The notes under the pieces: generated by a model
Told to the model about the DNA's origin: nothing
The model's input: the letters and a program-made list of their open reading frames with translations, nothing else
Databases searched by the model: none
Made by a program: the position numbers and the translations under genes
Assembly (NCBI GenBank): GCA_005792285.1
Contig: SXSI01000029.1
Span: 1 to 51,941 of the forward strand
Source of the DNA: Bacteroidota bacterium
GTDB taxonomy: Bacteria; Bacteroidota; Ignavibacteria; UBA10030; UBA8401
Reading direction: 5' to 3'
Length of the DNA: 51,941 nt
Shown here: one piece after another, positions 37,125 to 39,324 of the stretch
How positions within the stretch are numbered: position 1 is the first letter of the stretch
Layout of the letters: each line of letters starts with the position of its first letter

Positions 37125-37768
37125 TATTTGAACTTCCATTTATTGCGTTAATTGGATTTACAATTGGATTTTTTTCCAGCATTCCGATTGGCCCGATAAA
37201 TATTGCATTAATAATTAGAGCACTTCAGCATAATTCCAAGCCGGCAATTTTTATCGCTATTGGAAGTGGAGTAATGGAATTTATTTATTGCTTGGGTGCA
37301 ATTCTTGGATTTTCAAGTTTATTATTTATTCCTCAAGTTGATAAAATTTTACAAATATTTTCAATTGCAATTTTTACAATATTTGGGATCAAAGCTATTT
37401 TCTTTCAAACTATGCAACCATCAATCGATGAGGATAATAACTCAAAAGACAATAATTATTTTAAATTTGTGATGATGGGAATGGTCTTATATTTTTCAAA
37501 TCCGGGATTTATTGCTTATTGGGCGACAGTTGCAAGCTTGATAAGTGGTTTACGCTTGTTTGATTATTCTTCAATTAATAATTTAACATTTGCAAGTAGT
37601 ATTGTTGGTGGTAGTTTATTTTGGAGTTTATTACTTATTAGTTTAGTGACAAAATATAAATTGAAAATAACCGGCCGTATTATAAAATTAATATCCAGAA
37701 TTTTTGGAATTATAATTTTGTTGGTATGTGCTTATTTAACTTACAATTTGGTAAAAGGTTATTTCTAA
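37121..37768 (+). CDS. LysE family transporter
   Basis: A 215-aa membrane protein with about six helices. FFSSIPIGPINIALIIRALQ near the N terminus is the LysE/RhtB motif (PGP-type turn; here PIGPIN), and the helix after it (FIAIGSGVMEFIYCLGAILG) keeps the usual small-residue pattern. These exporters remove amino acids such as lysine or threonine. It overlaps dusB by 4 bases. A hydrophilic stretch with clustered aspartates and asparagines (about residues 105-112) separates the two halves. The substrate is unknown. Confidence 0.82.
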   Translation: MIFELPFIALIGFTIGFFSSIPIGPINIALIIRALQHNSKPAIFIAIGSGVMEFIYCLGAILGFSSLLFIPQVDKILQIFSIAIFTIFGIKAIFFQTMQPSIDEDNNSKDNNYFKFVMMGMVLYFSNPGFIAYWATVASLISGLRLFDYSSINNLTFASSIVGGSLFWSLLLISLVTKYKLKITGRIIKLISRIFGIIILLVCAYLTYNLVKGYF

Positions 37769-37854: not shown

Positions 37855-38088
37855 TTAAGATTTCTTTTTAGTTTTGCAGCAAGCGTCTTCACCTTTGGAA
37901 GAGTGTGCAGTTTTTACATCACATTCTTTTGTATTTTTTGCACCAGCTGTTTTGCCGTCAAGTGGTTGTGCACAGCATGCTTTTGATTTACTGGATTTAG
38001 ATTTTTCGGAATTCTTATCTCCTGCAAAAGTAAGTATAGGAATTAGTAAAATCCCAAAAATTAGAGAAAATATTAATTGTTTTTTCAT
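37855..38088 (-). CDS. Small exported Cys- and Lys-rich protein of unknown function
   Basis: A 77-aa protein with a clear signal peptide (KKQLIFSLIFGILLIPILTFAG, cleavage near residue 22). The mature part is almost all Lys, Ser, Asp, Ala and Thr, with five cysteines in two CC pairs and one single (KACCAQP, KECDVK, DACCKTKKK). This could bind metal or make disulfides in the periplasm, but no family is recognised. The ATG is preceded by AAAAGGGTAC. It stands alone between the LysE-type gene and the small RNA, with a hairpin after it. Confidence 0.7.
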   Translation of the reverse strand: MKKQLIFSLIFGILLIPILTFAGDKNSEKSKSSKSKACCAQPLDGKTAGAKNTKECDVKTAHSSKGEDACCKTKKKS

Positions 38089-38152: not shown

Positions 38153-38184
38153 TTGCTTTTTCATATTTAATAACAGTATATTTG
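38153..38184 (+). promoter_or_regulatory. Bacteroidota-type promoter of a small RNA
   Basis: CTTGC at 38152-38156 and TATATTTG at 38177-38184 match -33 and -7 elements. The expected start is near 38,190, just before the two hairpins described as a small RNA. Confidence 0.45.
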
Positions 38185-38189
38185 AGTGT

Positions 38190-38269
38190 CAATTGTAAAA
38201 GCTCCTCCCCTAGCTTTTACATACTAAATGACATACCCGATATTACCCCCTAATATCGGGTTTTTTTTT
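38190..38269 (+). ncRNA. Putative small RNA with two C-rich hairpin loops
   Basis: About 80 bases with no coding frame but two perfect hairpins. Hairpin 1: a 9-bp stem (38195-38203 with 38212-38220) with the loop CCTCCCCT. A linker (ATACTAAATGACAT) follows. Hairpin 2: an 11-bp stem (38235-38245 with 38251-38261) with the loop CCCCC, followed by nine T, i.e. an intrinsic terminator. No + strand gene lies upstream within 400 bases, so the terminator must end its own transcript; a promoter-like element lies in the right place. The CCTCC in loop 1 matches the anti-Shine-Dalgarno core, which suggests pairing with ribosome-binding sites. It could also be a leader of the DUF3098 gene 35 bases downstream. 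Confidence 0.6.
38235..38269 (+). terminator. Strong Rho-independent terminator
   Basis: An 11-bp perfect stem ACCCGATATTA / TAATATCGGGT with a CCCCC loop, then nine T at 38261-38269. The orientation is +, and it forms the 3' end of the putative small RNA. Confidence 0.85.
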
Positions 38270-38919: not shown

Positions 38920-39324
38920 ATGAAGATCTTTCGAAAATATTTTTTCCTTTCCAGCATTATTCCTTTATTTCTTTTTGCAGAAATTATTACTGGCGGAACT
39001 TTATCCGGTAGAAGTGACGGCACAAATATTATAATCTCTTGGAAAAGTGATAACGAAAATGATTTAAAGCAATTTGTTATAGAAAGAAAATTATTTAACG
39101 CATCTTCTTACATTGATTTAGCAATTTTAAAACCAAAAGGAAATAACACTTTCTATCAATTTATAGATGAATCTGCATTTAAAACTTCGAGTTCCGTTTA
39201 TTCTTACAGAATTAGAATTGAAATGCAAAATGGATCAACTTATTACACGCAAAGTTTTAATGTTGCACATCATGTTTCAAGTGTAAAACGAACTTGGGGA
39301 AGTTTAAAAGCAATGTTCCGATAA
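38920..39324 (+). CDS. Small exported protein with fibronectin type III-like domain
   Basis: A 134-aa protein with an N-terminal signal sequence (YFFLSSIIPLFLFAEIITGG). The remainder resembles one fibronectin type III domain: ISWKSDNENDLKQFVIERK, then a FYQFIDES turn and YSYRIRIEMQNGSTYYTQSF, the pattern of 'interacts with other strands' FnIII found in T9SS-organism surface proteins. It lacks a C-terminal sorting domain and ends shortly after the fold (VKRTWGSLKAMFR). Probably periplasmic or surface-located. maf follows 12 bases later. Confidence 0.7.
   Translation: MKIFRKYFFLSSIIPLFLFAEIITGGTLSGRSDGTNIIISWKSDNENDLKQFVIERKLFNASSYIDLAILKPKGNNTFYQFIDESAFKTSSSVYSYRIRIEMQNGSTYYTQSFNVAHHVSSVKRTWGSLKAMFR

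Follow-up and report, generated by a model that had tools for sequence, protein, structure and literature searches.

The window analyzed here is the whole 51,941-nucleotide (nt) contig SXSI01000029.1 (GenBank assembly GCA_005792285.1) of a bacterium of the class Ignavibacteria (Bacteroidota). Positions 38153-38269 of its plus strand comprise, as read from the sequence, a promoter and a predicted small RNA (sRNA) of about 84 nt that ends in an intrinsic terminator; a gene of the DUF3098 family (PF11297; 38304-38534, plus strand) follows, with its start codon 34 nt past the T run. The putative promoter consists of a -33/-35 box, TTGCTT (38153-38158; TTGACA in most relatives), and, after an 18-nt spacer, a -7 box of the TAnnTTTG form, TATATTTG (38177-38184), both delineated from upstream alignments. 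The sRNA, predicted from its fold and a covariance model, would extend from 38186, a 5' end placed from the promoter to within 3 nt in either direction, to 38269. Folding and covariation point to three helices, namely P1, formed by GTGTCA (38186-38191) and TGACAT (38229-38234); P2, a hairpin (38194-38221) with a stem of 10 base pairs (bp; 38194-38203 with 38212-38221) and the loop CCTCCCCT (38204-38211), which contains the core TCCCCT (38206-38211); and P3, the terminator hairpin (38235-38269 with its tail), with an 11-bp stem (38235-38245 with 38251-38261), the loop CCCCC (38246-38250) and nine T (38261-38269). The folding energy of the element is -28.7 kcal/mol compared with -12.4 +/- 2.6 in shuffled sequences (z = -6.3), and none of 200 shuffles equaled it. 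The initial annotation of this DNA had recognized the promoter, two hairpins, the second with an 11-bp stem and nine T, and the lack of a plus-strand gene close upstream, all of which are borne out: the upstream plus-strand neighbor, a LysE gene, ends at 37768, and the open reading frame (ORF) at 37855-38088 is on the minus strand. The P1 helix, which encloses P2, adjoins the terminator and is conserved with covariation, had been overlooked.

Only one other genome represents the genus; its copy of the RNA is 93% identical and is located, as here, between the LysE and DUF3098 genes; the flanking intergenic DNA of the two genomes is hardly alignable, and P2 contains a compensatory A-U to G-C change. 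Past the genus, DNA BLAST yielded no match, as the sequence of the RNA changes too quickly. The two sequences were used to build a covariance model (R1), which produced full-length matches in 56 of the 98 genomes of the order, mostly with E-values of 1e-5 to 1e-9. A second model (R2), built from the order-level copies found with R1, detected strong matches throughout the class Ignavibacteria and, when run with laxer filters, further copies. No convincing R2 matches were found outside the class; among the matches at E-values of about 1e-3, the one that was inspected (L127) aligns to the terminator only and was rejected. No copies were found in viral contigs. In the alignment of 60 order-level copies, 97.0% of the pair cells are formed and 23 of the 26 pairs show double changes; the covariation score is 0.398, whereas shuffles reach 0.197 and slid controls no more than 0.092. 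When each copy was folded alone, P2 and P3 formed in all 60 and P1 in 59. A separate set of loci, selected with a sequence pattern, gave a covariation score of 0.473 against 0.205 in shuffles; the search pattern fixed the loop, so the loop conservation in this set was left out as evidence. Among the named genomes scanned with the pattern, loci of Ignavibacteria, Ignavibacteriales and Ignavibacterium score 49-97 bits, as do loci from metagenome-assembled genomes loosely named Bacteroidetes or Chlorobi; pattern matches in Streptomyces, Roseovarius, Magnetospirillum, Clostridia and others have no meaningful model score and were dismissed as chance. The conservation of both stems and of C-rich loops in relatives, whose absence the initial annotation had named beforehand as a refutation, was found by covariance search, and its prediction of a small RNA that has a promoter and a terminator to itself gains support from class-wide conservation. 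Judged by sequence comparison, the element is real and conserved through the class Ignavibacteria.

The P2 loop is constant while the stems change freely. The motif TCCCCT, preceded by TC, AC, CC or T, is present in all 60 order-level P2 loops, a tally that is somewhat biased upward because both seeds of R1 already carry it. In contrast, CCTCC, which the initial annotation had singled out, as the core of the anti-Shine-Dalgarno (anti-SD) sequence, for a key role, occurs in only 16 of these loops and so gives way to TCCCCT as the conserved part. A run of four C is present in every one of the 145 unique loci in which gene arrangement was analyzed, and 132 have two such runs. The C-run of the terminator loop is less constrained, being present in most members and absent from some (L053, L126). 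A variant is found in family f7 (L119, L121, L123-L125), where the P2-loop motif is lost and six consecutive C are found in the terminator loop; this variant still precedes DUF3098 wherever that gene was called.

No Rfam family reached its threshold in the window, the relatives or 20 further loci, and neither Rfam nor the literature searched yielded a regulatory sRNA of Ignavibacteria that matches the element; as the initial annotation had suggested, the RNA is apparently undescribed. The closest resemblance is in anatomy. In the ar14/cuckoo RNAs of Alphaproteobacteria, an anti-SD-like C-rich loop motif is constant while the stems diverge freely (PMC10746234, PMC3927594), and a constant C-rich hairpin-loop motif on drifting stems is the trait that the element shares with this family (RF02344). 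The element shows sub-threshold likeness to the Rfam profiles of ar14 and anti-hemB (RF02837), with a best RF02344 score of 36.0 bits against a gathering threshold of 58.8, which none of the 20 further loci reached. The motif of ar14/cuckoo, carried in all of its hairpin loops, is CCUCCUCCC, compared with UCCCCU here, and its hairpins are serial, whereas here P1 encloses P2; the phyla differ as well. The likeness is what shared anatomy would give and need not reflect common descent across the phyla; by score, the element belongs to none of the Rfam families. Two C-rich loops, as here, are also found in the 6C/B11 sRNA of Actinobacteria, which differs in layout and phylum; the Rfam model of 6C matched neither eight relatives (E <= 1) nor the window (E <= 10). 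In Bacillota, RsaE/RoxS and other sRNAs with UCCC loops use a C-rich unpaired seed. The seed is alike in the present element and the structure differs; in the window, the RsaE model scores only 14.7 bits, its threshold being 79.

Across the class, DUF3098 (counted as linked when within 450 nt) follows the RNA in 109 of the 145 loci, mostly 15-45 nt past the T run, and the remaining 36 copies are free-standing. The upstream neighbor varies: LysE in the window, an 82-amino-acid protein in family f14 and, in a large part of the order, an ABC ATPase with an FtsX-type permease. A promoter-like match, with a TTGAC box and a TATATTTG-like box, was found ahead of the RNA in 105 of 108 linked loci, compared with 9.6 in shuffled sequence, and in 22 of 35 free loci. 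The free-standing copies keep the loop and the terminator, and often the promoter. Some face a convergent rsmE gene, and others lie close behind ispG (family f11) or behind tRNA-Met; there are also tandem arrays, with two or three copies that have their own promoter and terminator. Two of the arrays (L112:1352-1637, with two copies, and L189:6395-7109, with three) precede a gene of the phosphoenolpyruvate carboxykinase (GTP) type, identified with Pfam in L112. On the minus strand of L103 (1501-1657) and L117 (1521-1678), the RNA is directly behind tRNA-Met (CAT), as if it were co-transcribed and freed by tRNA processing. These last two loci, together with the ispG loci, are what would be expected if the element, as a conserved intergenic terminator, only ended the transcript of an upstream gene or a tRNA. 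This explanation is extremely improbable given the promoter-like matches directly upstream of both linked and free copies and the conservation of P1, P2 and the P2 loop, features that are dispensable for a terminator.

The linkage to DUF3098 bears on the alternative, raised in the initial annotation, that the element is a leader of this gene. In its strongest form, the element would be mainly a cis-acting attenuator, in which a factor bound to the C-rich loop controls the terminator and sets DUF3098 expression, the short RNA being a by-product. DUF3098 lies just behind the T run in most loci throughout the class and stays there while the upstream genes differ. Between the T run and the DUF3098 start there is little room for a separate full promoter, so that in the joined loci the gene would have to be read through the terminator. 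Furthermore, two families of the order, f2 and f4, in which the RNA was not found, have DUF3098 directly behind the ABC-ATPase gene, with promoter-like sequence (by eye) ahead of DUF3098. However, in families f8, f9, f11 and f19 the RNA is present and DUF3098 is elsewhere, and the free-standing copies, some of them tandem or facing convergent genes, retain the loop, the terminator and often the promoter. The RNA and the gene are separable in both directions and, therefore, the RNA is not a simple leader; the leader alternative is partly true, as it applies to the linked loci. The proposal that terminators are weaker in linked loci was rejected, the T runs of linked copies being no weaker than those of free copies. 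Nor is there a general alternative pairing of the 5' arm of the terminator before the 3' arm is made: in a search for a mutually exclusive antiterminator by minimum-free-energy folding of truncated transcripts of the 60 copies, on average 30% of the arm bases were paired, and in 44 copies under half were. We consider a predominantly attenuating role rather unlikely. Comparison across loci supports the structure, the conserved loop, the promoter, the terminator and both the linkage to DUF3098 and the independence from it.

A precedent for a combined arrangement is UpsM of Rhodobacter sphaeroides, an sRNA generated by termination in the 5' untranslated region (UTR) of mraZ, a gene that lacks its own promoter and depends for expression on read-through past the UpsM terminator, at a rate of about 1 in 100 (PMC5089854). 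The setting is alike, with termination ahead of a conserved gene, and the sequence-level signature of a 5'-UTR sRNA of this kind, a promoter and a terminator of its own ahead of a gene without one, is present here. Sequence, structure and downstream gene are unrelated and, in contrast to UpsM, the element also has free-standing copies.

Two ORFs near the RNA have no Pfam match. The minus-strand ORF upstream (37855-38088) encodes 77 amino acids that begin like a signal peptide and end in a tail rich in Cys, Lys and Ser, and is missing at the corresponding place in the sister genome; a plus-strand ORF of 134 amino acids (38920-39324) is conserved in the sister genome, where it follows tRNA-Lys and tRNA-Leu.

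Taken together, we consider it likely that the element is a trans-acting, Hfq-independent sRNA with C-rich loops, with a DUF3098-leader function on top. Hfq (PF17209) was detected in none of 10 genomes, whereas five control genomes were positive. Among known RNAs of similar anatomy, either C-rich loop of the B11 (6C) sRNA can suffice to repress an mRNA with a G-tract (PMC10470900), and 6C is reported, in the title of a work cited there, to function without RNA chaperones. As for potential targets, in the own-genome tests of start sites, which covered about 830 genes in 1.10 of 1.68 Mb, AAGGA is found at 8.2% of gene starts compared with 1.8% farther upstream; GGAG is found at 11-22% of starts in relatives, and the 16S tail of one relative keeps CCTCC. 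SD-like sites are a minority trait in these genomes. By a hydrophobicity rule, 63% of the AAGGA-bearing genes in the genome encode membrane or exported proteins, compared with 31% of the others (p = 1.7e-7); this enrichment is a property of the genome and not evidence on the RNA.

Several observations, in addition to the upward bias of the loop tally, weigh against this interpretation. Sites complementary to the loops, assessed by duplex energy, are not in excess at the starts of the genome's own genes relative to upstream, coding and reversed-loop controls, and the reversed loop performs equally well at start codons. For the loop variants, the match to the DUF3098 start region is no better within a locus than between loci. 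Accordingly, the pairing with ribosome-binding sites suggested in the initial annotation found no support in these tests. Moreover, for an RNA acting purely in trans, the association with DUF3098 (109 of 145 loci) is unusually close. Loop pairing is slightly stronger at the DUF3098 start than at other starts; feedback pairing to this start as a rule was rejected, there being no locus-specific match (permutation value 0.99). In three loci of the window's own family (L033, L043, L080), DUF3098 leaders contain GGGGAAGGAG (GGGGAA), complementary to their own UUCCCC loops, and this does not amount to a general rule.

The lack of a target mRNA class in the start-site and DUF3098 pairing tests, along with a loop that stays constant while the stems drift, would also fit a different function, in which the C-rich loop is a binding site for a cold-shock-type or ribosomal protein and the RNA is a protein sponge. 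In Bacteroidia, bS21, bS18 and bS6 sequester the anti-SD tail (PMC9976891), and therefore a CUCC-like loop could be a mimic of this tail. However, no protein candidate was found, and known RNAs of similar anatomy act by base pairing (PMC10746234, PMC10470900), so that we regard the sponge as improbable.

Under the favored scenario of a trans-acting sRNA with an additional leader function, a housekeeping-type promoter would start the RNA, P1 would enclose P2, and the terminator hairpin would follow directly. P2 would present the seed, the single-stranded UCCCCU loop, with a second C-run usually available in the terminator loop. We infer that the RNA is transcribed and pairs in trans; its loops would most likely bind G-rich sites by base pairing, independently of Hfq, the putative targets being probably SD-type sites in the SD-bearing minority of mRNAs, and this pairing would block translation or alter the stability of the target mRNAs. 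In most members, including the one in the window, the RNA would double as the 5' leader of DUF3098, with most transcripts ending at the terminator as the sRNA and a fraction reading through to allow DUF3098 expression.

A broader and tentative possibility, which we consider doubtful, is that the element is a class-wide anti-SD-type sRNA acting on the SD-bearing minority of mRNAs; given the enrichment of membrane and exported proteins among the SD-bearing genes, it would then regulate the envelope globally, and read-through would couple it to DUF3098, a small membrane protein. The order of promoter, sRNA, terminator and gene, which some families have and related families lack, offers natural experiments on the interconversion of leaders and sRNAs. 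Furthermore, the presence of an anti-SD-like loop in a phylum of SD-less mRNAs with a sequestered anti-SD tail (PMC9976891) raises the question of what such a loop binds there.
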